Origin: a virus
Strand: one strand, 5' to 3'
DNA: 55,656 nucleotides
IMG/VR virus record: IMGVR_UViG_3300050821_004348
Coordinates: 1 to 55,656 of that record
Shown here: piece after piece, positions 14,713 through 29,720 of the stretch
Layout: every line of letters starts with the position of its first letter
Position numbering within the stretch: position 1 is the first letter of the stretch
Position numbers and translations under genes: made by a program
Notes under the pieces: model-generated
Told to the model about the DNA's origin: nothing
Databases searched by the model: none
Seen by the model: only the letters and a program-made list of their open reading frames with translations

Positions 14713-15524
14713 TTATGCTGTCTTCGGTTCGTGTCCATAGTAAATGACGAAGGGACGATTGATGATAGTAGAAAAGACTGGCATATCTATAGGCACACAC
14801 TCCGTCCTCTCCACCATTAGATTGGGGTCACTCCTTGCCTCGTGTTTCTCTGGTAGTGTATCTAACTCTTCCGTTGTGAACTTACGAGCAGATTTCTTTG
14901 AATATAAGTTCCCCGTTTGAAGAAAGTAGGATAGTTATTCCAATTAATCTTCCTCTCCATAAGCATATCCAACATCTCACCAGTATGCTTGTTATGGAGT
15001 TCTTTGTGGGAATAGACACTTTGAGCAGCCATAGAAATACTATTCTTCGTCGCATCCCATTCCCTCCACAGAAAGCAGTTGGCTCCTTCTTCTAGTGTTG
15101 GAACGTTCCAGACACGAGCATCAAAGTGGGGGAGCTTTTCTTGGAGGGCACTCACACCCCTGTCAAAGTAAAATGGTAATTCACAAAAGAACAGAACCGA
15201 AGCCATCCCTGCTAAAACCGATTCCATCTTCTGGATGCGACCATTGAAGAAGATTTCACTTTTAGAATTATCACTATACCAAGTAAGAGTGATTTCATCA
15301 CTCTGGGTGTAGCCCATACAAGCATTCGTTTCCTTGACAAGATACTTAGTTAGTCTAATCATAGACATAGCAAATCGTTCGTCATAAGGACGATTCATAT
15401 CTTTGGTGAACTTAGAGAATGAGCGTCCATCCAATCTTGCCATTGCTGGAATGAGAGGAAGTAGCTTTCGTCCTGCTACTTCCATTTCATAAGCCTTCAC
15501 CCTATCCCCGAGAGCGTCATTCAT
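14713..15524 (-). CDS. tRNA-His guanylyltransferase (Thg1-like), with an apparent -1 frameshift
   Basis: A Thg1-family 3'-5' nucleotide-adding enzyme. MARLDGRSFSKFTKDM (D32) and TQSDEITLTW (D76, E77) carry the metal-binding residues, and FFNGRIQKMESVLA follows as in phage and bacterial members. Frame 0 stops at 14862 after RGTYIQR. The sequence KSARKFTTEELDTLPEKH then continues in the -1 frame to a TAA at 14713, with the family's usual C-terminal block. One extra A in the AAA at the junction would restore a 270-residue protein. It is either one missing base, a real frameshift, or frameshifting. The enzyme would add G-1 to tRNA-His or repair tRNA 5' ends. Confidence 0.8.
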
Positions 15525-15534
15525 CTTTCATCTC

Positions 15535-15837
15535 CTACTCTACAGAAAAAGTGAATCTTGCTTCGTATTGGTCATACTTGACTATCCAACCCACTTTTCG
15601 GTAAATATCTTCCACATCCAACCAATGATTGTTGTAGATTTCTTCACTAGAGGAGAGAGGCATCTTTTCCAGAATCCTATTCACTACTTCCTTAGCTGTA
15701 AATGATGACGACGAATTGGAGAAGTTTTCTGATATCAGTTTATTAAAAGATTTAATCACAGCGTCTGGTATTGTGCTCTCCTTCATCCCCAACACTTGGG
15801 CAGGATTGATGGGTTGGACATTTCTGGCGTTACTCAT
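15535..15837 (-). CDS. conserved small phage protein (IP..VI.SFN type)
   Basis: A 100-residue protein starting MSNARNVQPINPAQVLGMK at 15837, where its ATG overlaps the clamp stop codon. The pattern IPDAVIKSFNKLISENF is found in unnamed phage proteins near replication genes. C-terminal KVGWIVKYDQYEARFTF looks like a beta hairpin. The longer start at 15867 would overlap the clamp gene by 38 bp and lacks a clear SD. Confidence 0.55.
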   Translation of the reverse strand: MSNARNVQPINPAQVLGMKESTIPDAVIKSFNKLISENFSNSSSSFTAKEVVNRILEKMPLSSSEEIYNNHWLDVEDIYRKVGWIVKYDQYEARFTFSVE

Positions 15838-16939
15838 CTTTCTCATACTCCTCTCTAGCCGACTCATTGGAAGTGGAGGAAGGAGACTTGGACTCCTCTT
15901 TCTTCTTCGTCAAACCAGTGATGTACTTGTAATTAGAACCCTTTACGATTAAAGCGTCCTCCGTCACTTCACACTGCGAATGCTTCTCCACCACTTCTTG
16001 GAGGACAGCAGGCGGAAGCATGAAGTGCATCTCATCACCAGTGTACTCTACTCGCTTCACTTCCTCATACCAATCAATGCCATCCCTACCTGTGATACGG
16101 ATAGCACCCTTCCCCGCTGGACCAGGTTTCAAATCAATATAAAGTTCATCGTGGTCACTGCCTTGAGCCCCGATGAAGTCCTTGGCTCTGTCTGCCGTCT
16201 CCTTCAATGCCTTGGGAAGTGAAAGAGGTTTCCCTGTGACGGAGAGACCTGTATTGAAGTCGGGAAACTCTACGACGTTATCCACATAACGACGGCAAGA
16301 GAGGATGAGTCCACGGATGTTCTTGAAGTGAACCCATCTTTCTGTCTCTGCGAATTGATTAGCACCCATATCCTTCACGTGCTTGATAGCATTGCGACGG
16401 ACGAGGAAATCTTTAGCAAATCCTGTCTGCATATTCCAACGACAGATTTGATAATAGTCTCCTGCTTCTACGAAATTTGGAGAGACGTGGACGCAAGTCA
16501 TGGAGAACTTATTATCATCCATTCCCGCACACTTCTGCACCAAGCCGACGGCTTCACCGAAAGATTCTGGGAGAGATTGCCACTGCTCCTCCTTCGGTGT
16601 CTCTATCACTTCTATCGGCATAGAGATTTTCGCTTCCATACGAAAGTGTCCACACTTATTCTTCCCCTTGACGAGGAGTTCGTTGTCTTTGACGGAAACC
16701 TCTACGGATTCTTCTTGGAGTTTCCCAAGGCAATTCAAAAGTTTTTCGTGGTGGACTGCACCAGTGAAATCTTTTCCAAAGGGGGAAGGGATACGACACG
16801 CGGTTTCATCGTTGTAGCTGTATATCAATCCGTCTGAGAAGACGTAGCATCTCGATTGGTCAATGATTTCTTTCTGTGCTAATCCTGGACGACAGGATTC
16901 GAGGGTAGCGAGGAATTGTTCTCTATTGATTGAAGGCAT
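15830..16939 (-). CDS. sliding clamp-like protein (DnaN/beta-clamp fold)
   Basis: A 369-residue protein with the repeated beta-alpha-beta pattern of DNA clamps. The N-terminal domain is LATLESCRPGL ... YVFSDGLIYSYNDETACRIP. Later come EVSVKDNELLVKGKNKCGHFRM and a C-terminal domain with ALIVKGSNYKYITGL. These match the D-x-L-x-VxG-xx-G edges of DnaN-type domains. It probably tethers the split family A polymerase, loaded by the protein at 6822-7778. The last 25 residues are a disordered Ser/Glu tail. The assignment rests on pattern, not a sequence search. Confidence 0.65.
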   Translation of the reverse strand: MPSINREQFLATLESCRPGLAQKEIIDQSRCYVFSDGLIYSYNDETACRIPSPFGKDFTGAVHHEKLLNCLGKLQEESVEVSVKDNELLVKGKNKCGHFRMEAKISMPIEVIETPKEEQWQSLPESFGEAVGLVQKCAGMDDNKFSMTCVHVSPNFVEAGDYYQICRWNMQTGFAKDFLVRRNAIKHVKDMGANQFAETERWVHFKNIRGLILSCRRYVDNVVEFPDFNTGLSVTGKPLSLPKALKETADRAKDFIGAQGSDHDELYIDLKPGPAGKGAIRITGRDGIDWYEEVKRVEYTGDEMHFMLPPAVLQEVVEKHSQCEVTEDALIVKGSNYKYITGLTKKKEESKSPSSTSNESAREEYEKDE

Positions 16940-17200
16940 TTATTCTACTCCCTTTGGAATGGCGTTTTCGTGGTCAAAGTCAACTTGTTCTACTGGATGT
17001 GGAATAGGACCAGCCCATTGACGCCTACTTGTTTCTGTCGCATACAAAGGTTTGATTGTTCCCTGTTCAAGTATGTAAGGATGTGGATACTCTTCACTGC
17101 CTGTGATTACTAAGTGGATGACACCATCCCCCTCATCACCATACCTAGACCAATAGTATCCACTCTTCGTCGGCAGTTCCTTCGACCATTTCAATAACAT
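16940..17200 (-). CDS. YYWSR/WAGPIP small phage protein
   Basis: An 86-residue protein, paralogue of the one at 740-982: LLKWSKELPTKSGYYWSRYG at the start and RRQWAGPIPHP near the end. Unknown function. It begins 12 bp after the gene at 17212-17478 and directly precedes the clamp gene. Confidence 0.5.
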   Translation of the reverse strand: MLLKWSKELPTKSGYYWSRYGDEGDGVIHLVITGSEEYPHPYILEQGTIKPLYATETSRRQWAGPIPHPVEQVDFDHENAIPKGVE

Positions 17201-17211
17201 CTGTTTCCTTT

Positions 17212-17478
17212 CTAGAAGGACTCAAGGAGTCCTTCTTCCTCGTCGGGTTCTTCTACTTCTTTGGCTTTATTTATCTTTTCTTTCACATCTTTACTTGTCT
17301 TGCCCTTTTGGATAGGGACGTCTGTGACTTCTTCGCCTCTCGATTCTGCTAATCTCTTGAATCGACTGCTGGGGTTTTCATTCTGGCAGTGGATGAAGTA
17401 GGTGAACATGACTGTCGCATTGGGAATGACGTATTCGGGGAGACTGCGGTTCTCTTCACCACTATAGAAGATAATCAT
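17212..17478 (-). CDS. uncharacterised partner of the DpdA-like gene
   Basis: An 88-residue protein (MIIFYSGEENRSLPEYVIPN ... MFTYFIHC) whose start overlaps the DpdA-like stop as ATGA. I recall short proteins beginning with a similar YYSGGG...PE-VL...hML-Y segment next to DpdA-type genes in other phages, so a shared role in the modification pathway is plausible but unproven. C-terminal half is Lys/Glu-rich and likely disordered. Confidence 0.5.
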   Translation of the reverse strand: MIIFYSGEENRSLPEYVIPNATVMFTYFIHCQNENPSSRFKRLAESRGEEVTDVPIQKGKTSKDVKEKINKAKEVEEPDEEEGLLESF

Positions 17479-18365
17479 ATTACTCTGCTTTTCTTCTTAT
17501 CATTGGGCTTGAAAGCCCAGGGATACTTGGGAAGGGATTTTCTTAATTTCTCAAAGAAAAGAAGGTTGGCTAACTTTCGACACGAGTGGCTATTGATAAC
17601 ACCCTCGTTATTATCGTCACCCAGTGGCACTTCAATTTCTGTCAGCCATTCTAAGAGTATCTCCCTCGCCCCGTCTGAGAGTGTTCTAATGTGCTTATCC
17701 TGGTCACCAACTTTGGACTCATTGGAAACACTTATCATATAGGGTTGCGTGCGGAAGGAGAACTTTCCGTCTCTTTTATGAGGGACGAGGACATTCCCGT
17801 AGGCACCGACCTTCGTCCACGTTGCGGAATCAACGGATGTCCAAGGCCACCTCCACATCAAGTCAAACGCCGTCATCGCAAATCCGTGCGTCCTTACCAG
17901 TGGAAGATAATCATTGGAGGCGGGACAGAGGCGAGTGAAAAGAGCATCCCCCCAATCCAAATACATATTCTTCGTCACCCCCTGCCCCAGCCCTCCTATG
18001 CCTAGATAAGTGTATCCCGCCTCTAAGTGCTTATCTATCCACTCTGCACTTGCTCCATAGTGGATAACTGGGATAGGGTGGAGTCCGTGTTCATTCTCTA
18101 GATACTTTAGAACCTTCCAGGAACGCTCTGGATCGTAGATGACATCGATGTTGGCGTAGAAGTCAATGGACTTGGGGTAGGCTTTGATAAAGGAGGCGTA
18201 CCTATCGCAGTAGGCGTAGAACTCGGAGGAATCGTAATAGGCGTAGCCAGCTTTGTTCCCCATCTTTCCAACATAGATGTTCCACAAAGAATGCGCCCCG
18301 CTGTCAAGGAACACCAGTTTAAATTGAGGATCGGGTCGATTCTCTGCGGTAGGTGGAAGTGGCAT
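17475..18365 (-). CDS. dpdA: DpdA-like 7-deazaguanine DNA transglycosylase (TGT superfamily)
   Basis: A 296-residue protein with TGT-type active-site blocks. VFLDSGAHSLWN (D21) is the base-recognition Asp, and FYANIDVIYDPERSW follows. PVIHYGASAEW then YTYLGIGGLG gives the barrel strands, and HGFAMTAFDLM ... WTSVDSATW (D179) supplies the likely nucleophile. Phage DpdA enzymes exchange guanine in DNA for preQ0 or a derivative. Adjacent folE, queD, queE, queC and queF genes strongly support that role over tRNA modification. It overlaps the QueF gene by 47 bp. A GTG start nearer the DSG motif is possible. Confidence 0.75.
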   Translation of the reverse strand: MPLPPTAENRPDPQFKLVFLDSGAHSLWNIYVGKMGNKAGYAYYDSSEFYAYCDRYASFIKAYPKSIDFYANIDVIYDPERSWKVLKYLENEHGLHPIPVIHYGASAEWIDKHLEAGYTYLGIGGLGQGVTKNMYLDWGDALFTRLCPASNDYLPLVRTHGFAMTAFDLMWRWPWTSVDSATWTKVGAYGNVLVPHKRDGKFSFRTQPYMISVSNESKVGDQDKHIRTLSDGAREILLEWLTEIEVPLGDDNNEGVINSHSCRKLANLLFFEKLRKSLPKYPWAFKPNDKKKSRVI

Positions 18366-19758
18366 GAATGGACACTCCTCCTCTAGGGGTTTGGATGACT
18401 GTGACAGTGACTTCGTTAGGATGAATAGAGTCTACTACGTGTTGAAGTAAGTCGTGGGATAGTCTTTCACAGAAGACGCCTGTTTCTCGCAAACTCTGCA
18501 GTTTGAGTTTAAGGGACTTAGATTCAATACATCGTTCATCTGGCACATAGTCAATTTCTACTGAGTAGAAATCTGGTTGATTTGTAATCGGGCAATTGTG
18601 AACTATAATACCATTGGCGAAGAAGCATTCCGTATCTTCCACCTCCATATTGTAGACATCTGCTTTGCCTGCTGATTCTACAGAAATAACTTTATGATTC
18701 AAAGATGGTAAAGTAATCTTCTTTCTTAGACTTTTGGTTTCTTTGTCTGTTCTTACTTTCCCTCCTGCTTTCCTCACCCAATCACAGATAGACGTGGAAT
18801 GGACACCATAGTAGTCACAGAGTTCATATATAGTGTATCCCTTTTCATAATATCCTAAACATTCGGTATACACTTTTCTCTTATTAACGTGGTCAGCATT
18901 ACCGAGTAAAGATTCTCGTTGTGTTCTTTTTTTTACTAAATGACCTATCCTATTTATTATTGTTGAGACGTCACATTCATATTTTCGCCCTAAATCAGCA
19001 AAAGACGCCCCGTTTTCATATTGTATTACTAAATCATCAATGTTAAGAAATGCTTCATAGCCGTATTGTTCTAAACGATGATAAGAGGAATGCACACCCT
19101 CATGCAAGATTTCTAAATTAGATGGTGTATTATCATAGTGGTTGTGATTCTTATGATGTACATGCTCCTCATGTGATATTGATTCGCCGTAGACACATTC
19201 AGCTACTAAACGATGCCTCCCTTTGCCTTTTATTGTATCCCTTTGACGTTGGTGAGAAACCAACCTCATAGAAGGTTTTAGGTCTTTAGCTTGAATCCAA
19301 ATATACCAATGCCAAGAGGCTCTGCCTTCTTTAACTAGAAATAGGTGGTCTGGTGTGCAAGTGATTTCTTTCTCAACCCTCTTCCTTGGTTCCCCTTTCT
19401 TCGTTCTCCCTTGCAGTAAAGAATATTTAACTCGCACTACACCAACTTGGTCTCCAGTTTTTCTTACATTCGTAAATTTCTTGGCTACTGCTGTATTATC
19501 ATTCTGGTCAAAAGAAAAGACAACACCATCAAACCCTACAAGGTCCTTTATGGCTCTACCAAAAGGGTAAATCGTTTCATCAGTTGCCACATCTATCAAT
19601 GTATCTCCGTGGAGGCATCTTGCACTGCATTCATTGGAAATCATTTTGACGCGAGAGATGTGACCGGGACGAGGAAATGATTCCAAGAGTTCCGTCGGTT
19701 CTGTGACACCGGACTTACCGAGAAGGGTGAGGTCTTTCTTAAATTGTTCATCGTTCAT
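18319..19758 (-). CDS. queF: QueF-type 7-cyano-7-deazaguanine enzyme interrupted by an HNH intein
   Basis: A 479-residue precursor. Residues 1-47 and 389-479 join to a 138-residue QueF: LTLLGKSG, LLESFP, CPITNQPDF with the catalytic Cys and Asp, then ESKSLKLKLQSLR, VFCERLSHD and TPRGGVSIH. The QueF FHE motif reads FCE here, so the usual His is Cys. QueF reduces preQ0 to preQ1, while QueF-L relatives make archaeosine; the altered motif leaves the product open. Residues 48-388 are an intein inserted directly before the catalytic Cys. With the DpdA-like enzyme this predicts a 7-deazaguanine derivative in phage DNA. Confidence 0.8.
   Translation of the reverse strand: MNDEQFKKDLTLLGKSGVTEPTELLESFPRPGHISRVKMISNECSARCLHGDTLIDVATDETIYPFGRAIKDLVGFDGVVFSFDQNDNTAVAKKFTNVRKTGDQVGVVRVKYSLLQGRTKKGEPRKRVEKEITCTPDHLFLVKEGRASWHWYIWIQAKDLKPSMRLVSHQRQRDTIKGKGRHRLVAECVYGESISHEEHVHHKNHNHYDNTPSNLEILHEGVHSSYHRLEQYGYEAFLNIDDLVIQYENGASFADLGRKYECDVSTIINRIGHLVKKRTQRESLLGNADHVNKRKVYTECLGYYEKGYTIYELCDYYGVHSTSICDWVRKAGGKVRTDKETKSLRKKITLPSLNHKVISVESAGKADVYNMEVEDTECFFANGIIVHNCPITNQPDFYSVEIDYVPDERCIESKSLKLKLQSLRETGVFCERLSHDLLQHVVDSIHPNEVTVTVIQTPRGGVSIHATSTYRRESTRSSI
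18595..19617 (-). mobile_element. intein with HNH endonuclease inside QueF
   Basis: A 341-residue in-frame insertion with class 1 intein features. It begins CLHGDTLIDV (Cys1). Block B is ITCTPDHLFLV (TxxH) and the end is GIIVHN, followed by Cys+1. An HNH-type homing endonuclease sits in the middle: EEHVHHKNHNHYDNTPSNLE. Two helix-turn-helix-like segments follow (ASFADLGRKYECDVSTIINRI; YTIYELCDYYGVHSTSICDW), which probably bind the homing target. Cys+1 doubles as the QueF catalytic nucleophile, so the host enzyme is inactive until splicing is complete. Confidence 0.85.
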
Positions 19759-19762
19759 GGGT

Positions 19763-20644
19763 CTATCCTTTGATAAGATTGAAGAATTCTGCTCGACAGG
19801 AGGGTTCTTTCATAAACACCCCTGTGAGGCTGCTGGTCACTGCAACTATTCCAGGTTTTTGAATTCCACGACAGGACATACAAGAGTGCTGGCATTCAAT
19901 AACACAGGCACTCCCCTTGGGCTGCAAGTATTTATCGAGGGCATCCGTTATCTGCTCCGTTAATCTCTCTTGCACCTGGAGCCTACGGGCAAAGACATCA
20001 ACCAGACGTGACAACTTACTCAACCCAAGTATCTTCCCCTTGGGAATGTAGGCAACGTGAGCAATCCCCGAGCATTCTAACATATGGTGCTCACACGTGC
20101 TACTGAAGGGAATCCCTCTCAATAACACCATCTCATTACAAGCTCCTTCTGTGAAGCACTTGAAGACGTCTTCAACATTCTGTTGATAGCCAGAAAAGAG
20201 TTCTTTATAAGAACGAGCTACCCGAGCAGGCGTCTCCAGAAGACCTTCCCTTGTCGGGTCATCTCCAATAAATTGGATAATTCGGCGGATATTATCTTCA
20301 ATTCCTGCCCCTCCTACTGGGTTCTCCCTCTCCCACGGCATAGAAACCCACTTCCCTTGCCAGTGTTCATCCTTATCTAACTTGTCCACAAGTGCATAGA
20401 AGGGACGTTGAGGGTAACGACTACACCAATCTGTCATCGTCGCCCCAGAGTCAATGATGTCATCTACAAAAACATCTGCCTGTGCTGGATTTTCAACTAC
20501 TAAGGAAGACGGATGACGAGCGTGGCAGATGAGGGCTGCTTTGATGCCACCATTGGGGATGCCGTAGATGTTCTTCCCTGTGAGGGGAAGGCTCTTCGCT
20601 CGCATATAAAGTTCGTCGTAAGAGAGGGAGATGACTTGATTCAT
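19763..20644 (-). CDS. folE: phosphoribosyltransferase-like domain fused to GTP cyclohydrolase I
   Basis: A 293-residue fusion. Residues 1-105 look like a small PRTase: GIPNGGI, then VFVDDIIDSGATM (59-70), the PRPP-binding loop. Residues about 115-293 are GTP cyclohydrolase I: CEHHML (C184, H186, H187), GLSKLSRLVDVFARRLQVQERLTEQI and CQHSCMSCRG (C258), which supply zinc and substrate residues. FolE makes dihydroneopterin triphosphate, the first step to preQ0. The role of the PRTase-like domain is unknown; it might be degenerate or act on a purine in the same pathway. ATGA overlap with queC. Confidence 0.8.
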   Translation of the reverse strand: MNQVISLSYDELYMRAKSLPLTGKNIYGIPNGGIKAALICHARHPSSLVVENPAQADVFVDDIIDSGATMTDWCSRYPQRPFYALVDKLDKDEHWQGKWVSMPWERENPVGGAGIEDNIRRIIQFIGDDPTREGLLETPARVARSYKELFSGYQQNVEDVFKCFTEGACNEMVLLRGIPFSSTCEHHMLECSGIAHVAYIPKGKILGLSKLSRLVDVFARRLQVQERLTEQITDALDKYLQPKGSACVIECQHSCMSCRGIQKPGIVAVTSSLTGVFMKEPSCRAEFFNLIKG

Positions 20645-21354
20645 TCTGGTTTCTTAGGAAGAGGTCCAGTGTATTGGTAAGGGATGGGGTCTTCGATTCC
20701 AAGCAGTTGGAAAGATTCTCTGCGTTCGCAGCACGCTCCGCAACGCCCACAAGAAACCTCATTATCGGTATAACAAGTCCGCGTGTACTGATAAGGAGGA
20801 GGGGCAGTGAGTGCGAATCCTGCTTTAAGGATGCCTAGTTTATTCGTATACAGGAACGGACACTCTAATGTGATACCAGGCTCATTGTCTTCCCACTTGG
20901 TTGCTTTTCCAATGGCATTCTGCATAGCTTCAATAAAGGCTGGACGGCAGTCTGGGTAGCACGCAAAATCTCCAGCATGAGCACCGAGCCACACTTCACT
21001 ACATCCCTCACTTACTGCTATCCCAGTAAGAATAGACAGGAAAATCATATTCCTATTTGGCACGACTGTCTGACGCATATTCTCTTCTTCATAATGCCCC
21101 TCTGGGATAGGTCTCTCGTCCGTTGCGATGAGAGCAGATTTGAAACTGCCCATTACAGCAGATAAGTCCAGCAAGCGGAAGGGAACACTATAGTAGTCGG
21201 CTACCTTCTTGGCAGCGATATTCTCCCATCGTCCGTGACGGCTTCCGTAGTAGAAGCCGACGGCTAGGACTTCTTTGGCTCCGTGCTTGTCAACAGCAAC
21301 AGCGAGGGCAGTGGAAGAATCCATTCCACCGCTTAACGCGCACACACATTTCAT
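20641..21354 (-). CDS. queC: QueC, 7-cyano-7-deazaguanine synthase
   Basis: A 237-residue N-type ATP pyrophosphatase. It starts MKCVCALSGGMDSSTALAV with the SGGMDSS P-loop (residues 8-14), and VPNRNMIFLSI and WLGAHAGDFACYPDCRPAF follow. The C-terminal zinc site is SCGRCGACCERRESF. It converts 7-carboxy-7-deazaguanine to preQ0 with ATP and ammonia. The start at 21354 has GGAGG and overlaps the upstream stop codon; the ATG at 21366 is too early for that SD. Between folE and queE in the modification cassette. Confidence 0.9.
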   Translation of the reverse strand: MKCVCALSGGMDSSTALAVAVDKHGAKEVLAVGFYYGSRHGRWENIAAKKVADYYSVPFRLLDLSAVMGSFKSALIATDERPIPEGHYEEENMRQTVVPNRNMIFLSILTGIAVSEGCSEVWLGAHAGDFACYPDCRPAFIEAMQNAIGKATKWEDNEPGITLECPFLYTNKLGILKAGFALTAPPPYQYTRTCYTDNEVSCGRCGACCERRESFQLLGIEDPIPYQYTGPLPKKPE

Positions 21355-21617
21355 GATATCCTCCATTCATTCGCAAAGATGATATCTTTCATTGACGATA
21401 GGGTTGTTGTATCTGGGATTAGGAACTTGCCATCTGAAGACCAGTTTGTCGTATCCTTATTCTTTTCGTAGTATTTAGTCAAAGCCTCTTTGGGAGTCGT
21501 TCCCATCTCTTTTCCTAGAACCATATGCGTCCACCAGCAGACGCCCCACTGGTTTCGAAGGAGTATCCAATACTCCTTCGAGTGCCACCACTTTATCAGT
21601 TTCTGCCAAAGAGACAT
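21351..21617 (-). CDS. uncharacterised Trp-rich 88-residue protein
   Basis: A small protein with an unusually Trp-rich N-terminus (MSLWQKLIKWWHSKEYWILL ... WGVCWWTHM). This may be a membrane-surface helix. C-terminal part polar. It lies inside the modification cassette, overlapping the start of queC, but no link to that pathway is visible. Confidence 0.45.
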   Translation of the reverse strand: MSLWQKLIKWWHSKEYWILLRNQWGVCWWTHMVLGKEMGTTPKEALTKYYEKNKDTTNWSSDGKFLIPDTTTLSSMKDIIFANEWRIS

Positions 21618-21633
21618 TCTTATTACCTTTCCT

Positions 21634-22212
21634 TTATCCTTTCAATCCTTGGAGGACTTGATAAGCCAAATCGTAAACTTCTTCCTGGCTAAGAATCGCA
21701 GAAGTAAGTGCCCAACCAGTCAAGTTTGTCTCTCGTCTCACCGACTTGGCGAGCCTGTATAACTCATTATTCACCTCCTCTTCTGTCCTTCCCAAAAGAG
21801 CAGCCAAGTATCCGACATCAAGGACAGAATACTTGTTCTCTGGGTTCAAGCACAAGGACATAATGTGATAATCCCTTTTAGTAAAGACCCGTCCCTTCCG
21901 CCAAAGATGTTGGTCTGGGAAGAATAGGACGGAAGGACCTTGAGAGTTCGGGTCACAATACTGGACGGCAATCTTCCATATCTTCGTCCTCAAGGCAACC
22001 CAAGTCCTTCCCAACAGATGCACCATTCCCAACTTTCCACTCTCATAGCAAAGGTCGCCAAGATAAGACATAAAGAGGAGATTAACATCCCTACTCGTCC
22101 ACTTCTTTCTATCAAGGACTAAGGGTCCTCTTTCTTCTTGGGATAGTCGTTTCTTGGTGTTGTGGACGCTATTCAAGTGGAGGCGGCGATCCGTTTTTCG
22201 TACTTTACTCAT
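21634..22212 (-). CDS. possible SANT/Myb-like DNA-binding protein
   Basis: A 192-residue basic protein starting MSKVRKTDRRLHL at 22212, its ATG overlapping the upstream stop. The stretch KKWTSRDVNLLFMSYLGDLC ... LLGRTWVALRTKIWKI resembles a SANT/Myb repeat, and a second weaker one (FTKRDYHIMSLCLNPENKYS ... AALLGRTEEEVNNELYRLAK) follows. Two repeated helix-turn-helix units suggest sequence-specific DNA binding. It lies between QueE and QueC but is not a known pathway member. Confidence 0.5.
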   Translation of the reverse strand: MSKVRKTDRRLHLNSVHNTKKRLSQEERGPLVLDRKKWTSRDVNLLFMSYLGDLCYESGKLGMVHLLGRTWVALRTKIWKIAVQYCDPNSQGPSVLFFPDQHLWRKGRVFTKRDYHIMSLCLNPENKYSVLDVGYLAALLGRTEEEVNNELYRLAKSVRRETNLTGWALTSAILSQEEVYDLAYQVLQGLKG

Positions 22213-22423
22213 TTTCATCCATACCCTTTGATGAAATGGTTTGAACGTATTGATACTTTCCCGAATCTTGCTTATCATAGATTCTTACATAGCCATCTCC
22301 CATAAAGCCACAATAGATATGTGGAGGGTACTCTTCGATTCCTTTGGGCATTTTATCAATTACGACGGAGACTAGTTTCCCATCGTATGGACCTCCGTTT
22401 AGAACCGCACAGAAGAGATTCAT
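22205..22423 (-). CDS. small phage protein (LNGGPYDGK type)
   Basis: A 72-residue protein: CAVLNGGPYDGKLVSVVID, IYCGFMGDGYVRIYDKQ. Proteins with an N-terminal NGGP-DG motif and a beta-rich body occur widely in phages without known function. Inside the modification cassette. Confidence 0.5.
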   Translation of the reverse strand: MNLFCAVLNGGPYDGKLVSVVIDKMPKGIEEYPPHIYCGFMGDGYVRIYDKQDSGKYQYVQTISSKGMDENE

Positions 22424-22426
22424 ACC

Positions 22427-22618
22427 TCACCAGTATTTGGAGATGAAGTGAATGGCAACCCAGATGACACCGATGAGGAGACTTAAGTAGCACAGAAGGG
22501 AGAGAAGCCAGATGACGAAGGCTGCCATTGCTCCTTTCTTAACTCCTCCTTGTACTTGCTTAAAGAATTCTCTGTGTTCCTGTTGCATCTTCTTAAAGTT
22601 ATCGTTGAAAGAATCCAT
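22427..22618 (-). CDS. 63-residue single-pass membrane protein
   Basis: An N-terminal amphipathic, charged helix (MDSFNDNFKKMQQEHREFF) is followed by a long hydrophobic segment, residues about 30-57 (MAAFVIWLLSLLCYLSLLIG), that forms one or two transmembrane helices. It could be mistaken for a holin, but no lysis genes are nearby. Function unknown. Confidence 0.5.
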   Translation of the reverse strand: MDSFNDNFKKMQQEHREFFKQVQGGVKKGAMAAFVIWLLSLLCYLSLLIGVIWVAIHFISKYW

Positions 22619-22626
22619 TTTGTCTC

Positions 22627-23364
22627 CTACTCTAAACCAACGAGTTTATGGATTTGTATGGTGAGTCGGTAATCAGTGTGCTTCAAGCACGCATCTGCGG
22701 CTGCTTTGAGGTGGAGTTTATTCCGTTCCTCATCCTGCTCGTCCAAAGGTTGAATCCAAACCTGTCCTTTGAATCCTTTCCAAGGGCGAGCAACCCTAAC
22801 ACCCGCACCTAAACTATCGGTGGGAAGCCCGTCCTCTGGGTCTATCTTATCATAGGCAACGATATATTTCAAGTGGTCTATGAAAGGTTTCAGCCTTTCA
22901 TTTATAGAACCTGTTTTGGGGGAGCAGACAAGGGTGAAGGTATAGTGAGGTGTTCTGGGGTCTGACTGAGGGACGTATTCTGTATTGTCCGGCACGAAAG
23001 GAAATAGAGTGCCATTCGTCTCAATTTGGATTTTGTAACCCAGGTCTTTGGCTAGTCTATCCATTAGAGGAAAGATATTCTGTCGCAGGGGTTCCCCTCC
23101 TGTCAATACCACCAATCCAGGATTGGGCATGAGAGATTGAACTTTAGCAACAATCTCCGGAACGGAGAGGAGGTGACGACCAGTGGTATAGTCGGAATCA
23201 CAGGCGGGGCACGCTAAATCGCATCCTGCTGTACGAATAAACACCGCTGGAGTACCAGCGAAGGGTCCCTCGCCTTGAAGGGTATACCAGACGTGAACGA
23301 CGTCTAAGTTTCCGTCGGGGTCGTTTACGGGCTTCTCAATTGGTTGCATATTCAAGGGAATCAT
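22627..23364 (-). CDS. queE: QueE, 7-carboxy-7-deazaguanine synthase (radical SAM)
   Basis: A 245-residue radical SAM enzyme. LQGEGPFAGTPAVFIRTAGC then CDLACPACDSDYT carry the CxxxCxxC iron-sulfur motif (C48, C52, C55) with the N-terminal extension typical of QueE. VVLTGGEPLRQN and IQIETNGT are the SAM-binding strands, and SPKTGSINE and WIQPLDEQDEE the C-terminal blocks. It turns 6-carboxytetrahydropterin into 7-carboxy-7-deazaguanine. AAGGAGTAAAA precedes the ATG, and the gene follows queD by 2 bp. Confidence 0.9.
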   Translation of the reverse strand: MIPLNMQPIEKPVNDPDGNLDVVHVWYTLQGEGPFAGTPAVFIRTAGCDLACPACDSDYTTGRHLLSVPEIVAKVQSLMPNPGLVVLTGGEPLRQNIFPLMDRLAKDLGYKIQIETNGTLFPFVPDNTEYVPQSDPRTPHYTFTLVCSPKTGSINERLKPFIDHLKYIVAYDKIDPEDGLPTDSLGAGVRVARPWKGFKGQVWIQPLDEQDEERNKLHLKAAADACLKHTDYRLTIQIHKLVGLE

Positions 23365-23366
23365 TT

Positions 23367-23807
23367 TTACTCCTTAGTAAAATCACTCCAACAAGATGGA
23401 GTTTCATAAATACGAACGTTGACGATTTTGTAAGGTTTGAGTTTTTCTACTATTGCGAAGTGAAGTTCTCTTGCCATCTCTTCCGCAGTAGGATTAACTC
23501 CATTGATATGCGTCCCTTGATAGCATCCCATTACATATGGAGGAATTTCTTCTGTGTCGTGTAGGAACTTGAGTAGAGGGTCTTTGTAATTGAGAAGAAT
23601 ATTGTGATCCCAATAGGTATCGATGAATCCTTTCACCACGTCCTTCAAATCAGCAAAATCTATTACCATCCCTAATTTATTCAAAGTTCCATAATTGACA
23701 GTGACTTCGGCTATTCCATGATGTCCGTGAACATTCTTACACTTGCCGCCGTGCCCCAGAACCCGATGTCCGTAATCAAATTCAAATCTTTTGGTGACGG
23801 AGAACAT
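23367..23807 (-). CDS. queD: QueD, 6-carboxytetrahydropterin synthase
   Basis: A 146-residue member of the PTPS/QueD family. FEFDYGHRVLGHGGKCKNVHGHHG holds the three zinc histidines (H14, H27, H29) and the catalytic Cys (C23). GMVIDFADLKDVVKGFIDTYWDHNILL is the signature following block, and NPTAEEMARELHF and NVRIYETPSCWSDF end the enzyme. It converts the FolE product to 6-carboxytetrahydropterin. First gene of the modification cassette in the transcription direction, directly after the terminator at 23821-23860. Confidence 0.9.
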   Translation of the reverse strand: MFSVTKRFEFDYGHRVLGHGGKCKNVHGHHGIAEVTVNYGTLNKLGMVIDFADLKDVVKGFIDTYWDHNILLNYKDPLLKFLHDTEEIPPYVMGCYQGTHINGVNPTAEEMARELHFAIVEKLKPYKIVNVRIYETPSCWSDFTKE

Positions 23808-23820
23808 TAGGAGAATCTTT

Positions 23821-23860
23821 CAAAAAGAGAAGGGGGCTGCTCTCATAGCAAGTGCCCCCT
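23821..23860 (-). terminator. rho-independent terminator upstream of the modification cassette
   Basis: A 7-bp stem AGGGGGC/GCCCCCT (23831-23837 with 23854-23860) stacks on TGCT/AGCA with a 5-nt loop. On the minus strand it is followed by TCTCTTTTTG. It closes the transcript of the gene at 23888-24607. No promoter is evident between it and queD, so read-through must serve the cassette. Confidence 0.8.
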
Positions 23861-23887
23861 CATTTTAGTTGCTACCCAACCTATCGC

Positions 23888-24607: not shown

Positions 24608-24632
24608 GAAATGTCTCCTTTCTTGAGATTTT

Positions 24633-24658
24633 GGAGAGTAGCACATTGCTACGCTCCC
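24633..24658 (-). other. leader hairpin just after the 24.66 kb promoter
   Basis: GGAG-A-GTAGCA / TGCTAC-G-CTCC with a 3-nt loop, that is 10 bp with one mismatch, positioned to start within a few bases of the predicted transcription start. It would form a stable 5' end on the mRNA. Confidence 0.6.
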
Positions 24659-24659
24659 G

Positions 24660-24695
24660 TATTACCATTATACTATCGCTGTTTGGGGATGGCAA
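24660..24695 (-). promoter_or_regulatory. sigma-70-type promoter for the 23888-24607 gene
   Basis: On the minus strand: -35 TTGCCA (24690-24695), a spacer of exactly 17 bp, -10 TATAAT (24667-24672). Start predicted near 24660, about 50 nt before the start codon. Confidence 0.75.
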
Positions 24696-24730
24696 GTGTT
24701 CTGTGGAGAAAGATAATGGAAAAGATTTGG

Positions 24731-24955
24731 TTAGAAGGAAGAAAGAAACCAGGGAACGACATTGGCAGTCTCCGTCTTCTCTGTGTATGGAACTAGAACA
24801 TAGCCAATCGGTTCTAAAGAAACATAAGGATAGACGAATCCGTATTTGTCTTGGTAAGTCTCCTTTATGGGAAAGTAGCCAAGGTAGCGATAGGGAGATT
24901 TTGGATCAATAGAAAGCGGAGTTAAAGTTCTTTTATAGGATAGAAGTAGAGTCAT
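24731..24955 (-). CDS. uncharacterised 74-residue protein
   Basis: Start MTLLLSYKRTLTPLSIDPKS at 24955 with AAGGAACC upstream. Tyr- and Pro-rich (SPYRYLGYFPIKETYQDKYG), beta-type composition, no recognised family. Downstream of the helicase gene and just upstream of the 24.66 kb promoter, whose -35 lies after its stop codon. Confidence 0.45.
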   Translation of the reverse strand: MTLLLSYKRTLTPLSIDPKSPYRYLGYFPIKETYQDKYGFVYPYVSLEPIGYVLVPYTEKTETANVVPWFLSSF

Positions 24956-24975
24956 TTTAGGTTCCTTAGAAAGGT

Positions 24976-26418
24976 TTAAAAGACGGAGAGGACAAATGGG
25001 TTTGCTAAAGACAAGCACGTTGCCACATGGCAACATCGTTTGTAATTAAAATCAATATCCCTAGCATCAATCCAATTCAATCTCATTGTTCCCTGTTCTT
25101 TTTCCTTTGGAGTCACATTTAGAGCAAACATAGAATTGATGTGGCTATGTTTCCGTTTATCATTGGAGAAATTCTTTTTGCTTTGTGTTATCGTGTCATA
25201 ACTAGCAGCATCACTCTGTGTGGCAGTTATGACACAAGCGTGGGTTTCCTCGCTTAACCTCCGCAATTGAGCCCATGTCTCATTAATGGCATCCCGCGGG
25301 TCTAGTCTATTATTGGGAGAGGCCAAAATATCCGCGTAATCAATGATAATAAGGTCTGGACACCAACCTTCTAAGTGCCAAGATTTGAGTTTGGCTCTAA
25401 TGCCAGCAACATTGATGGATACATTAGGATAGACGGCTAATTTGAAGAAGGAATGATTGGACTTTACTTTATCTCGCATTAGTTTCTGACAGGATTCCCA
25501 TGCCGTCTTTCTATCTAATCTAGTAGTAAAGTTGAGATTAGTGTGCTGGACTCTGGCTTCCACTTTCCCCTTTTCTGATTTTAGAAGAGATGTGGGGAAC
25601 TTGACTATGGTAGGCCAGATACCAGTGGGGCTACGCCAGGGGTGGTCAGATACCCTTGCCATAAGGCGACGCTTTATTTGCCTCCTTGTCATATCACCAA
25701 CTTCAAAGAAAGCCACCCTCTTTCTTTGAAGCATTGCTAAGAACCCCAATTCTTGGAGGACAAAAGTTTTACCAGTCTTTTCTGGAGCCTGTATAGCAAC
25801 AAAACAATCCCGTGCTATTTCGCTTTGAAAAAAATCCGCCAAGCCACTACCTGGAGGAAATTGAATAAGAGATTCATCTATACCCTCAAAAGTAGCGTAG
25901 ACTTCATTCTCACTAAGAAAGACATCTTCATTAGCATCATCCGTTATTTCTGTGGTATAGATGGACAGGGCTCGGCTAAGAGCAGAATCTACTTTTCCCT
26001 CCTTAAGGTCTGCCTCTCCTGCTATGTACATACGACGTAGTTTGATAGAAATGAAATGATTCCTAGCCTCATCACACAATTGGTCTGTGTTTAGTTCTAA
26101 ACCATCAACAAAATTCTTGCTCATTCGAACAAGAATCTTTTCTATCTCTTCTACGAGTTTTGGGGTTCTTTTCTTAGTTGCTACCCATCTTTGGAAGTAT
26201 AGATTGAGACCTGCTTTGGGGGCTTCCCCATACTTTTCGAAGTGTTTGATACACCAAGACCCGATTTTGTTTGTCCATGAATTGGAGAATGGACCTTCAG
26301 CACTGAGACCATCTTTGGTGTGCCAATAAGGAAGAAGACGGGCACAGAATAGACTATCTGTGGCGAGTCCTGTTAGAATCCGTTCTTCAATTTGAAAGTC
26401 GAGAGTTTCCGTAAGCAT
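24976..26418 (-). CDS. replicative DNA helicase (DnaB-like, RecA-fold SF4)
   Basis: A 480-residue protein. The N-terminal helical domain (residues 1-160) is followed by the RecA-like motor: Walker A APEKTGKT (211-218), VAFFEVGDMTRRQIKRRLMA, Walker B PDLIIIDYADIL (about residue 355), CVITATQSD (motif H3-like) and the C-terminal SMFALNVTPKEKEQG ... LNWIDARD block. This is the DnaB/gp41 layout. It should unwind the fork for the split polymerase and cooperate with the primase at 32421-33293. It follows the iteron-bearing initiator gene. Confidence 0.8.
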   Translation of the reverse strand: MLTETLDFQIEERILTGLATDSLFCARLLPYWHTKDGLSAEGPFSNSWTNKIGSWCIKHFEKYGEAPKAGLNLYFQRWVATKKRTPKLVEEIEKILVRMSKNFVDGLELNTDQLCDEARNHFISIKLRRMYIAGEADLKEGKVDSALSRALSIYTTEITDDANEDVFLSENEVYATFEGIDESLIQFPPGSGLADFFQSEIARDCFVAIQAPEKTGKTFVLQELGFLAMLQRKRVAFFEVGDMTRRQIKRRLMARVSDHPWRSPTGIWPTIVKFPTSLLKSEKGKVEARVQHTNLNFTTRLDRKTAWESCQKLMRDKVKSNHSFFKLAVYPNVSINVAGIRAKLKSWHLEGWCPDLIIIDYADILASPNNRLDPRDAINETWAQLRRLSEETHACVITATQSDAASYDTITQSKKNFSNDKRKHSHINSMFALNVTPKEKEQGTMRLNWIDARDIDFNYKRCCHVATCLSLANPFVLSVF

Positions 26419-26449
26419 TGGCGGACCTTACTAGGAAGTGGAATCTTAG

Positions 26450-27463
26450 TTAAATCAATACTTCTTTAGCAATTCTTTCTATCCAGGTGAATATAGCCTC
26501 ATTACAGAAATGAGCCACGCTAGTTATGTCTGGTAATTTTAGATGTGACCTTTGTTCATAATTACTAACATAGAAATTGACGCATATCTCTATCCTATCC
26601 TCTGCTTGGGGTGGGGTCCCTAGTTGTTTGTATAGGATATACATTTTATCTGTTCTTCCTTGCACACTACTTGCTTTCATTGGCACATCTAAATCTCGAA
26701 GAGATTGGTGGAGTTTAGTGGACCATTCTTTACACCATTCTTTCTGTTGTTCGACTGATTTGGTCTTCTTTTGGAGTGGAGGTTCTTCTGTGTTCTCCGA
26801 ATGAGAAGGGCACGTTTCTTTTAAAAGTTTATTAGTAGGTTTATTAGGGGGATTCTCAATACCATTGGAAACCCCATTATTACAGCCATTTTTTGTCAGA
26901 TACTGGGTTTCCCTATTACTGGGTTTCCCTGTCTCCAGAGACAGGGTTTCCCCGTTTCTGAGGGGAGGGTTTCCCTGTAACTGGGTTTCCCTGTTACTGG
27001 GTTTCCCTGTTTCTGAACTTTCGTCATCCTCCTCAAATCCATCCGCATCCACGGCTGCTTCTTCCAATTTCTTCAAAGTATCTGTTCGCACTAAGACCCA
27101 GAGTTTATTCCTGTGTCCGTGTTTGGTTTCAAGAAGCGTTTTATCGGAGAGGGCTTTTATCACCCTGTCTACCTTATCCCAGGTCATCCCTAGTTTTTCT
27201 TGGATAGATTTATGAGGACACTGGAACCACATTTGTTCGTGGATTAATTTCTTTCTGTCGTTTCTATTTCCCCATTTCATTCGCAGAAGATTTAGAAGGT
27301 GGGAGAAGATGACGGCACTATTACCGTCGCCGTTCAAGTATTGGAGGTGGTCGTATCGGACTTGGAGAAAGTTGTTCCCAGCGTGGCGTTTCACCACTTC
27401 CATCTGCTTGGCAAAATCTTTTTCGGTATAGGTGGGGGTGCTGTCTACTGGTAAAGTGTCCAT
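26450..27463 (-). CDS. winged-helix replication initiator-like protein (O/DnaD type)
   Basis: A 337-residue protein starting MDTLPVDSTPTYTEK at 27463. Residues about 30-150 are a helix-turn-helix/winged-helix domain (SIQEKLGMTWDKVDRVIKAL ... HGHRNKLWVL). A low-complexity middle (residues about 150-230) is encoded by the iterons at 26905-27007. The C-terminal helical domain may load helicase. Gene order initiator then DnaB-like helicase is that of lambda-type O/P modules. A GTG start at 27559 would lie within a few bases of the predicted transcript start, so the ATG at 27463 is preferred. Confidence 0.6.
   Translation of the reverse strand: MDTLPVDSTPTYTEKDFAKQMEVVKRHAGNNFLQVRYDHLQYLNGDGNSAVIFSHLLNLLRMKWGNRNDRKKLIHEQMWFQCPHKSIQEKLGMTWDKVDRVIKALSDKTLLETKHGHRNKLWVLVRTDTLKKLEEAAVDADGFEEDDESSETGKPSNRETQLQGNPPLRNGETLSLETGKPSNRETQYLTKNGCNNGVSNGIENPPNKPTNKLLKETCPSHSENTEEPPLQKKTKSVEQQKEWCKEWSTKLHQSLRDLDVPMKASSVQGRTDKMYILYKQLGTPPQAEDRIEICVNFYVSNYEQRSHLKLPDITSVAHFCNEAIFTWIERIAKEVLI
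26905..27007 (-). repeat. six iterons (GGGTTTCCC) inside the initiator gene; candidate replication origin
   Basis: Six copies of GGGTTTCCC begin at 26905, 26921, 26944, 26967, 26983 and 26999, giving steps of 16, 23, 23, 16 and 16 bp. The wider unit is GGGTTTCCCTGTTACT. The repeats lie in the low-complexity centre of the initiator gene, the same place as the lambda O origin iterons. This is consistent with an initiator that binds inside its own gene. Confidence 0.65.
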
Positions 27464-27474
27464 CCGTCGTCTTT

Positions 27475-27535
27475 CTTTGTGGAAGATGGTGCCGTCCCCT
27501 GCTTCCACCACAAGGGACGGCACAAAGAAACTTGG
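27475..27535 (-). other. large leader hairpin ahead of the initiator gene
   Basis: Two nested stems: TTTCTTTGTG pairs with CACAAAGAAA and GTGCCGTCC pairs with GGACGGCAC on either side of a 14-16-nt loop. They cannot both form completely (the CAC/GTG bases are shared), so alternative folds are possible. It is in the predicted untranslated leader. Confidence 0.5.
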
Positions 27536-27566
27536 CTCGGGTCGCGACTCCCTCGCCACTGCCGCT

Positions 27567-27602
27567 ACACGGCATTATAGTTATCGTAATCGTTTAAATC
27601 AA
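27567..27602 (-). promoter_or_regulatory. sigma-70-type promoter for the initiator-helicase operon
   Basis: On the minus strand: -35 TTGATT (27597-27602), 17-bp spacer, -10 TATAAT (27574-27579). Predicted start near 27566, which places about 100 nt of structured leader before the ATG at 27463. Confidence 0.75.
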
Positions 27603-27666
27603 GCGGAAGTTCAAGAGGGGGAAGAGGATGTGGGCGATGGAGATGTGTTTGACTCTATCTCTACCA

Positions 27667-27894
27667 TTAGAAGTCACATTCTATCACTATATCTAATAAC
27701 TTTATCGTCTCCGCGTCCCTCGTCATATATGTCATCCCAGACTTTGTACGGATGACATATTCCTTCGTCTGTTCACTTACTCTAAAGGTAGAAATGGATT
27801 CAATGCAAGATGTGTGCAAGTGCGTGGTGAACACTTCTCGGTCACTATCAAAGCCGAAAAGACGCACTTTTTCTAACTTTTTGAGATTAGACAT
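27667..27894 (-). CDS. uncharacterised 75-residue protein
   Basis: A small beta-rich protein (MSNLKKLEKVRLFGFDSDRE ... FRVSEQTKEYVIRTKSGMTY). No domain recognised. It is the last gene before the initiator operon promoter; about 90 nt between them holds only that promoter and no visible gene. Confidence 0.45.
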   Translation of the reverse strand: MSNLKKLEKVRLFGFDSDREVFTTHLHTSCIESISTFRVSEQTKEYVIRTKSGMTYMTRDAETIKLLDIVIECDF

Positions 27895-27907
27895 TCTAAG
27901 AACCTTT

Positions 27908-28117
27908 CTAGGAAAGGGTTAAAAGAGGCGTTGTCCAATACTCATTCGTATCTATTGCTACAACGCTTCCTTTAGGAAGATGAGCACTTTTCACTAAATG
28001 GATTTTATGGAGGAGGAACTTATCTGCATAAGATATTAACTCGGTAAAGATATCCTCCGCCACATAGAGCCTTCCTGTCTTGGCAGCGAGTTGGATTAGT
28101 TTGTCAATGTCTTCCAT
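27908..28117 (-). CDS. uncharacterised 69-residue protein sharing a C-terminus with its neighbour
   Basis: Start MEDIDKLIQLAAKTGRLYVA at 28117 has AAGGAG. N-terminal helices, and the last residues WTTPLLTLS closely mimic the neighbouring phosphoribosyltransferase ending WITPLFTLS. The C-terminus may be a recombined copy. Otherwise unrecognised. Confidence 0.45.
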   Translation of the reverse strand: MEDIDKLIQLAAKTGRLYVAEDIFTELISYADKFLLHKIHLVKSAHLPKGSVVAIDTNEYWTTPLLTLS

Positions 28118-28125
28118 TTCTCTCC

Positions 28126-28490
28126 TTAACTTAAAGTGAAAAGAGGTGTTATCCAGTCTGGGCACTTTCCTCTAGCGAACACGACCGCACCGATACAAGG
28201 ACCAGGAATCTTTTTTCTAAACTCCTCCATACTCTTGCCTGTAGTAAGGACATCGTCAACTATCAATGAAGGATGGCTACCTGTGATAGTGATATAGGGA
28301 ACAAGTGCCGAAGCCAGTTTCAAACCACCTCTAGGAACTCCATACAAACAGAAAAAAGAGGTAATCGCTCCACCAGCATCATCGCCAATGTCCGCCAGTC
28401 CTCATCCGTCAAAGCATCACAATTTATCTTATACTTACTCTTCTGTCCACTATGGAGATGAAAATCTCCGAGTTGGAAAAGGTTTGTCAT
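28126..28490 (-). CDS. orotate phosphoribosyltransferase-like protein, with an apparent -1 frameshift
   Basis: Translation from ATG 28490 gives MTNLFQLGDFHLHSGQKSKY, KINCDALTDEDWRTLAMMLV and ERLPLFSV before running out of frame. The next frame continues YGVPRGGLKLASALVPYI and LIVDDVLTTGKSMEE (the PRPP loop), ending GKCPDWITPLF. This is the order of a short phage OPRT-type PRTase, about 121 residues. The break lies at a run of six T (minus strand) and one added base would join the frames. Predicted role is PRPP-dependent nucleotide salvage. Confidence 0.65.
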
Positions 28491-28497
28491 TCTTCTC

Positions 28498-28718
28498 TCA
28501 CCATTTCTGGTATCTACGTTGTTTCATCTTCTTGCTTTCTACTTCTTTTGTACCGCCGATGTGATACAGGTCACATATCTCGCATCGGTAAACCTCCACC
28601 TTGGCTCCATTCCTCTTTCTCATCCTCTTCACTCCTTGGCATACTCTTTCGTCCTGTAAGCATTTCCCTTCTGTGTCTTCTTCTGACACTGAGAGGATTG
28701 GAATTCTCTTAAACTCAT
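28498..28718 (-). CDS. zinc-ribbon-like small protein, with an apparent -1 frameshift
   Basis: From ATG 28718 the frame reads MSLREFQSSQCQKKTQKGNA, YRTKEYAKE then stops. The +1-base-corrected frame continues KRMRKRNGAKVEVYRCEICD, LYHIGG. The joined protein (about 73 residues) has the C-x(n)-K-x-x-Y ... YRC-x-x-C-x-x-YHIG pattern seen in small phage zinc proteins. AGGGTTAGGAT precedes the ATG. If the sequence is correct as given, only the 63-residue GTG-started C-terminal frame at 28498-28689 remains. Confidence 0.5.
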
Positions 28719-28721
28719 ATC

Positions 28722-28940
28722 CTAACCCTCATTCACCCACGTCAATGTTAATCCAACTTGGAGGATGAACATCGCACCAAGATTCACGGATACAGATTTA
28801 ATTTTAGGATGACGACGGAAGTATTCCTTAGCGTGCTTATCTAGGATGGAGATGTGTCCGTCCAAAGTTTCCAACTTAGCCGAAAGTTCTTCGGCACTCA
28901 TCTGTGGGAAGGTGACGTCTTGGATAGAATAGCCTGTCAT
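28722..28940 (-). CDS. uncharacterised 72-residue protein
   Basis: A small protein: MTGYSIQDVTFPQMSAEELS, a helix (AKLETLDGHISILDKHAKEY) and a C-terminal beta region. No family recognised. Confidence 0.45.
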   Translation of the reverse strand: MTGYSIQDVTFPQMSAEELSAKLETLDGHISILDKHAKEYFRRHPKIKSVSVNLGAMFILQVGLTLTWVNEG

Positions 28941-28949
28941 AGGAACTCC

Positions 28950-29113
28950 TTATTTCTTGGCTCGTCCTGGTTTACCATCGCGTACCCAGCAGTCGTAGCA
29001 TCTACCATCTTTGAAGATAGTCCGTCCTACTTTCATCCTGCCGATTTCAACCAGTTTCTCACAGAATGGGCAGATTCGCTCTGTTTCCTTTGAAGGCTTT
29101 TCTTCGATAACAT
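28950..29113 (-). CDS. small CxxC protein, start codon separated by an apparent lost base
   Basis: The coding frame (EEKPSKETERICPFCEKLVE ... DGRCYDCWVRDGKPGRAKK) has two CxxC pairs, a likely zinc ribbon, but no in-frame ATG. An ATG at 29113, exactly after the upstream TAA and 5 nt past GGAG, is one base out of frame. One extra base after that ATG would give about 54 residues. The given sequence may therefore carry a one-base deletion. Confidence 0.5.
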
Positions 29114-29251
29114 TTAATCTCCTACGGAAAGGATGACGAGAAGAGCAAGACCCCATCCCCAATTATCATTCCCAGTGGAAAGAATCATTACAGCAGTGAA
29201 AATCAATATTGCAAGGGCGAAGATGAGTTGCACCCATAACTTCTGTTTCAT
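29114..29251 (-). CDS. 45-residue two-helix membrane peptide
   Basis: Start MKQKLWVQLIFALAILIFTA at 29251 with GGAGACAAG upstream. Two short hydrophobic segments separated by STGNDNWG. First protein gene after the tRNA cluster; the ATG lies 28 nt after the tRNA-His. Confidence 0.5.
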   Translation of the reverse strand: MKQKLWVQLIFALAILIFTAVMILSTGNDNWGWGLALLVILSVGD

Positions 29252-29278
29252 CTTGTCTCCGTTGATTGAAGAATAGAA

Positions 29279-29351
29279 GCCGGACGACGGGACTCGAACC
29301 CGCACACCAGGATTCACAATCCTGTACTCTAGCCAGTTGAGCTACGCCCGG
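29279..29351 (-). tRNA. tRNA-His(GTG) without an encoded G-1
   Basis: Acceptor stem CCGGGCG/CGTCCGG (one G-T wobble), anticodon arm CAGGA-TTGTGAA-TCCTG with GTG, T arm GCGGG-TTCGAGT-CCCGT, discriminator C73. The base before position 1 is T, so the G-1 normally required by histidyl-tRNA synthetase is not in the gene. The Thg1-like enzyme at 14713-15524 could add it. Confidence 0.9.
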
Positions 29352-29353: not shown

Positions 29354-29438
29354 CGGAAGGAAAGAGAATTGAACTCTTAAGGGCTTTCGCCTCGCCTGTT
29401 TTCAAAACAGGTTCCCTCGCCAATGGGATTGTCCTTCC
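29354..29438 (-). tRNA. tRNA-Ser(TGA)
   Basis: Acceptor stem GGAAGGA/TCCTTCC with discriminator G; anticodon arm CCTGT-TTTGAAA-ACAGG (TGA); long variable arm (GAGGCGAAAGCC) as in class II tRNA; T loop TTCAATT. Confidence 0.9.
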
Positions 29439-29440: not shown

Positions 29441-29515
29441 TCGGGGTAGACGGATTTGAACCGCCGACTCCTTGCTCCCAAAGCAAGTGCTCTAGCCAAA
29501 CTGAGCTATACCCCG
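29441..29515 (-). tRNA. tRNA-Pro(TGG)
   Basis: Acceptor stem CGGGGTA/TACCCCG with discriminator A; anticodon arm CTTGC-TTTGGGA-GCAAG (TGG); T loop TTCAAAT. Confidence 0.9.
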
Positions 29516-29610: not shown

Positions 29611-29615
29611 AAATG

Positions 29616-29675: not shown

Positions 29676-29720
29676 TGCCGACGACCCTGTTGCTGGGGTC
29701 GCTGCTTTCTTGAATAAGAA

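Follow-up and report, generated by a model that had tools for sequence, protein, structure and literature searches.

Bacterial tRNA-His genes normally encode an extra 5' G (G-1). The main histidine determinant in bacteria is the G-1:C73 pair (PMC9976931), and in vitro, bacterial and archaeal Thg1-like proteins (TLPs) supply tRNA-His with a missing G-1 opposite C73 (PMC6471195). The TLPs tested favour 5'-truncated tRNAs and accept a broad range of tRNAs with or without the GUG anticodon, and no tie of bacterial TLPs to tRNA-His identity in bacteria has been established (PMC6471195; PMC3701042). In jumbo phages, Thg1 has been described as sporadic (PMC7824862). In 2010 the Thg1 of phage 201phi2-1 was noted, with maturation of tRNA-His and RNA repair to counter host defences as its possible uses, and the reason for Thg1 in large phages has stayed open since then (PMC2904730). 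Here we analyzed the IMG/VR virus record IMGVR_UViG_3300050821_004348, positions 1 to 55,656 (the whole stretch is called the window), which carries both a tRNA-His(GUG) gene without encoded G-1 and a gene for a Thg1-family enzyme, and we surveyed how these two halves occur across phages. The survey offers a first answer by comparison: whether a phage has Thg1 is not linked to whether its own tRNA-His needs G-1, and this favours a broader function at 5' ends.

Both gene calls are beyond chance, but chance does bear on their pairing, because U, C or A stands at -1 in about one third of phage C73 tRNA-His genes. The acceptor stem of the window tRNA-His (CCGGGCG/CGTCCGG) forms seven of seven pairs, including one G-U, and its end pairs are C1-G72 and C2-G71. 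Base 73 is C (29279) and is followed by TTCTATT, so that CCA is not encoded. With its flanks in lower case, the gene reads 5' to 3' ...tccgct/CCGGGCG TAGCTCAACTGGCTAGAG TACAGGATTGTGAATCCTG GTGT GCGGGTTCGAGTCCCGT CGTCCGG C/ttctatt. As T stands at -1, it is a tRNA-His gene without encoded G-1, as expected for a post-transcriptional G-1 pathway, and the initial annotation was right that T-1 is combined with C73 and that G-1 is missing. Its statement that the same phage encodes a Thg1-family enzyme also held: the open reading frame matched Pfam PF04446 with 99.9 bits (cut-off 29.2; 1.3e-28), which places it in the superfamily, and PHROG 4717 'tRNA-His guanylyltransferase' at 3.8e-79. The nearest solved structure by phmmer was the Bacillus thuringiensis TLP (BtTLP, 4KGK; 113 bits, 1.4e-31), followed by the M. 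acetivorans TLP (MaTLP, 5AXK; 49 bits) and eukaryotic Thg1 chains (26-37 bits), and by these scores the phage protein falls on the bacterial/archaeal TLP side, not with eukaryotic Thg1. The 28 aligned phage relatives are 34-69% identical to the window protein, and the catalytic carboxylates D32, D76 and E77 are invariant in 29 aligned phage sequences, the window copy included; the corresponding metal-binding carboxylates are D29/D76/E77 in the human enzyme and D30/D75/E76 in BtTLP (PMC3701042).

Co-occurrence of thg1 and T-1 tRNA-His in other phages had been proposed as a check on the pairing, and when it was run, no linkage of Thg1 with G-1-less tRNA-His was found across the relatives. The background consisted of 80 IMG/VR contigs picked by a tRNA-His core pattern blind to -1 and 73, whose identities were read by pairing register. 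The Thg1-bearing set comprised 26 INPHARED records, three contigs retrieved by means of the window protein, and further contigs from two scans based on alignments. The core pattern overlooks genes with odd T-loops (e.g. LR745206), and because most IMG/VR contigs are fragments, 'no Thg1' stands for none visible in the contig. All counts are of genes, not of independent events, and the hosts were mostly not identified. G-1 was present in 41 of the 60 background C73 genes and absent from 19 (T 14, C 4, A 1), and PF04446 was detected in one of the 80 contigs, where the tRNA-His was A-1/A73. C73 genes without G-1 amounted to 5/24 with Thg1 versus 19/60 without visible Thg1 (Fisher p = 0.43). Excluding the window left 4/23 in the Thg1-bearing records (p = 0.28), an earlier tally for these records gave 4/15 (p = 1.0), and removal of near-identical background tRNAs in the earlier tally left the outcome unchanged (4/15 versus 14/38, p = 0.54). 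The five G-1-less genes with Thg1 were those of the window, Gurke, G088 (one of two), G151 and G468, and the 19 with G-1 included those of phage G, D69, FLC9 and RAS14, one of two LR745206 genes, and the second G088 copy. Non-C73 tRNA-His was commoner in the Thg1 phages (13/28 versus 17/77, p = 0.026); host identity is a likely confounder of this excess, because several are alphaproteobacterial phages, whose hosts' own tRNA-His lacks G-1. About one third of the sampled C73 phage tRNA-His genes break the rule of an encoded G-1 that most bacteria follow, mostly with no phage enzyme at hand to make up for it, which raises the question of how such tRNAs get charged.

Each half was also found alone. 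The complete cyanophages S-PM2 and S-CREM1 have T-1/C73 tRNA-His, and PF04446 was not found in them; Staphylococcus phage PMBT8 has Thg1 with zero tRNAs, and Aeromonas phage 2L372D has Thg1 with two tRNAs only (tRNA-Ile and tRNA-Pro). Many phages carry Thg1, which turned up in 127 records and in at least 586 viral stretches. Of the 26 INPHARED Thg1 records searched, 16 yielded a tRNA-His, and in most Thg1 phages tRNA-His is either absent or, with C73, has its G-1 encoded. The closest Thg1 relative (69%) belongs to IMGVR 3300049215_000771 (labelled both L001 and G001), where none of the 56 tRNAs in the stretches read is tRNA-His, and LR745206 (Thg1 60%) encodes G-1 ahead of both of its tRNA-His genes. 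Close nucleotide relatives of the window were not found in INPHARED. A scan of bacterial genomes for H-1/C73 tRNA-His gave none, but with any -1 base allowed it reached only five genomes and had little power; in the four of these that were checked, -1 was G.

Some further observations were made in the survey. The G-1-less C73 genes without visible Thg1 include those of L125, L127, L134, L137, L140, L155, L165, L185 and L194, and in L140, L155, L185 and L194 the leader and trailer pair around the U-1/C73 mismatch. The Thg1 phages CBB (L038), XbC2 (L114), Fnu1 (L080) and LR756511 (L042) have G-1/A73 tRNA-His, a eukaryote-like combination. L001, a phage contig of 532 kb, has no fewer than 56 tRNAs, three of which were called with anticodon CTA, with amber decoding as a possibility.

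We give about an even chance to the reading that the phage Thg1 is a general TLP-type tRNA 5'-end repair enzyme and that G-1 addition is incidental here. In favour of it stand the closeness to BtTLP, the broad substrate range of the TLPs tested, the frequency of Thg1 in phages, often with no phage tRNA-His to act on, and the missing enrichment. Such an enzyme would polymerize RNA on a template in the 3'-to-5' direction, mending or completing the 5' ends of host or phage tRNAs during infection, and it would not be a dedicated partner of the phage tRNA-His. Because U-1 cannot pair with C73, host RNase P would cleave the phage tRNA-His before C1, the resulting 5'-phosphate tRNA with C73 would be a permissible TLP substrate, and G-1 addition opposite C73 would be one activity among several. 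Judged by the assayed TLPs, templated G-1 addition to this tRNA-His by the phage enzyme is plausible, but the pairing of the two genes is itself no evidence for it. The initial annotation had taken the pairing to suggest that the phage rebuilds its histidine identity post-transcriptionally; the two genes, the known TLP chemistry and the conserved carboxylates support this idea in part, but the inference drawn from the pairing, given no enrichment, is not supported. Several points weigh against general repair as the main role. The activity of phage Thg1 is deduced from sequence, and the window thg1 is frameshifted as sequenced. RNA ligase, polynucleotide kinase and a CCA-adding enzyme were not found among the window proteins scanned, and therefore a repair role is without local support. 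In addition, the missing association is compatible with a dedicated role in individual phages.

Such a dedicated role, in which the encoded G-1 was lost because the phage's own Thg1 restores it and Thg1 mainly matures the phage tRNA-His, is unlikely in our estimate. One contig does hold a Thg1 domain with intact catalytic residues together with a U-1/C73 tRNA-His, C73 would be the TLP template for G-1, and similar pairs occur in Brevundimonas phage Gurke, the viral contigs G088 and G468 (all T-1/C73) and the viral contig G151 (A-1/C73). However, there is no enrichment of such pairs, G088 holds both T-1 and G-1 tRNA-His, LR745206 with its closely related Thg1 has G-1 in both genes, and Thg1 is found in phages without any tRNA-His.

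The same counts bear on the quite unlikely alternative that the tRNA-His functions without G-1, or works poorly, and that Thg1 is unrelated to it, which could reflect a tolerant host histidyl-tRNA synthetase (HisRS), retention of U-1, or a marginal tRNA. The 19 of 60 C73 genes lacking both G-1 and a visible Thg1 agree with it, as do the complete genomes of S-PM2 and S-CREM1, and alphaproteobacterial HisRS can work without G-1 (PMC6471195). On the other hand, the most similar bacterial tRNA-His, that of Opitutaceae, has G-1 and may point to a host HisRS that requires it, and the well-formed cloverleaf and C73 speak for use of the tRNA rather than for a marginal one.

It is improbable, in our view, that the tRNA-His arose by remodelling of a tRNA-Asp and that the phage TLP completes its histidine identity by supplying the missing G-1 opposite C73. 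In this scheme, the anticodon would have changed from GUC to GUG and G73 to C73, and pairs 1-72 and 2-71 would have been flipped, with loss of the Asp determinants. tRNA-Asp genes lack G-1, and so would the tRNA-His remodelled from one; the missing G-1 would then be inherited, not lost, and a viral polymerase working in the reverse direction would have enabled a change of tRNA identity. In a comparison with 288 Verrucomicrobiota genomes, Opitutaceae tRNA-His (G-1 encoded) and tRNA-Asp came out equally close to the tRNA. The 5' half, the inner acceptor pairs, A15, T25 and T45 are Asp-like, pairs 28-42 and 29-41 of the anticodon stem resemble His, and the 3' half gives no indication either way. 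A 35-base body pattern found three viral contigs in IMG/VR, all three with tRNA-Asp. The Asp-versus-His profile log-odds was +6.0, a score reached by 4.5% of 156 tRNA-His, and Verrucomicrobiota profiles, which were made from similarity-selected hits, gave +9.8, matched by none of 148 other tRNA-His. The first of these scores puts the window tRNA at the Asp-like edge of tRNA-His, which is suggestive of a remodelled tRNA-Asp as far as 73 bases and similarity-selected references can indicate. Given the His-like pairs in the anticodon stem and the uninformative 3' half, the tRNA-Asp origin was not adopted as the main account and is kept as a minor reading.

The frameshift in thg1 displaces the final ~55 residues, which run out of frame down to 14713 after a switch near 14892-14900, so the full-length C-terminal domain is not in one frame in this record; in the relatives read through, the whole protein of roughly 235-280 amino acids is in a single frame. 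The initial annotation began its interval at 14713, which is the stop of the second frame, and did not mention the frameshift itself. The displaced tail remains well conserved (KFTTEELDTLPEKHEAR... versus KFTTNELEALPPKHQAR... in L001), and the catalytic domain precedes the shift. The shift is most simply explained by an assembly error or a recent lesion, and intact relatives exist. Programmed frameshifting was judged unlikely, as no X-XXY-YYZ slippery heptamer was found at the switch. That the window Thg1 is inactive or truncated because of the shift is improbable: the broken frame and the missing heptamer would fit this, but the tail is conserved as expected for an assembly error or a very recent shift, and the catalytic domain lies ahead of it.

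The tRNA-His is part of a tRNA cluster (Table 1). The tRNA-Ser(UGA), which finishes two bases upstream, was overlooked by ARAGORN and scored highest with the tRNA-Sec model (43.7 bits) because of its long variable arm; its cloverleaf with this arm had a z of -3.2. Three more tRNA-like hairpin elements lie at 29612-30060 (-), none with a canonical T-loop. Their anticodon-like loops are CTGAAAA and CTCAAAA, GGGGYTGCCACCTC is common to two of them, and two of the three fold more stably than shuffled sequences (z -2.6 and -3.1), which the third does not (z -0.5). Adjoining thg1, a complete 7-deazaguanine set (17475-23807, -) probably serves DNA modification. Elsewhere in the window, a family A DNA polymerase (10198-13963, -) is in two pieces with small open reading frames between, the upstream piece bearing a uracil-DNA glycosylase domain, and a SNF2-type helicase (40602-43016, -) has an internal LAGLIDADG domain, a probable second intein or homing insertion.

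Table 1 Coordinates of the tRNA, Thg1 and 7-deazaguanine features in the window.
Feature	Position	Strand	Evidence
Thg1 C-terminal ~55 residues, other reading frame	14713-14895	-	Homology to L001
Thg1-like protein, 220 amino acids in main frame	14862-15524	-	PF04446; PHROG 4717; 4KGK; alignment
Queuine tRNA-ribosyltransferase/DpdA-like	17475-18365	-	Domain/PHROG matches
QueF carrying intein with HNH domain	18319-19758	-	Domain/PHROG matches
FolE	19763-20644	-	Domain/PHROG matches
QueC	20641-21366	-	Domain/PHROG matches
QueE-like	22627-23364	-	Domain/PHROG matches
QueD	23367-23807	-	Domain/PHROG matches
tRNA-His(GUG)	29279-29351	-	ARAGORN; Rfam RF00005 60.9 bits
Position -1 of tRNA-His, T (U), not G	29352	-	Sequence
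tRNA-Ser(UGA), class II, G73 end	29354-29438	-	Rfam tRNA 36.5 bits; cloverleaf
tRNA-Pro(UGG)	29441-29515	-	ARAGORN, Rfam
tRNA-Gly(UCC)	29540-29610	-	ARAGORN, Rfam
tRNA-Leu(UAA)	29866-29947	-	ARAGORN; tRNA model search

Compared with the known systems, the window shares features with each and differs from all of them. BtTLP (PDB 4KGK/4KGM) is of the same family and has the same metal-binding carboxylates and WR..D...NS region as the phage protein, but it is chromosomal, continuous and assayed, whereas the window Thg1 is a phage gene, frameshifted and known through its sequence. The phage homologues 201phi2-1 gp319, phage G gp378, CBB, GAP32 and Bc431v3 gp143 are annotated as tRNA-His guanylyltransferases and belong to large phages. 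Of these, phage G, CBB and 201phi2-1 were checked: unlike the window, phage G has G-1/C73 and CBB has G-1/A73, and in 201phi2-1 no tRNA-His was detected. The cyanophages S-PM2 and S-CREM1 likewise have a U-1/C73 tRNA-His in a tight tRNA array, in their case without Thg1. The eukaryotic Thg1 system likewise has a G-1-less tRNA-His gene and a Thg1-family enzyme in one genome; however, eukaryotic tRNA-His has A73 and receives G-1 by non-templated addition, whereas the window combines C73 with a TLP-type enzyme.

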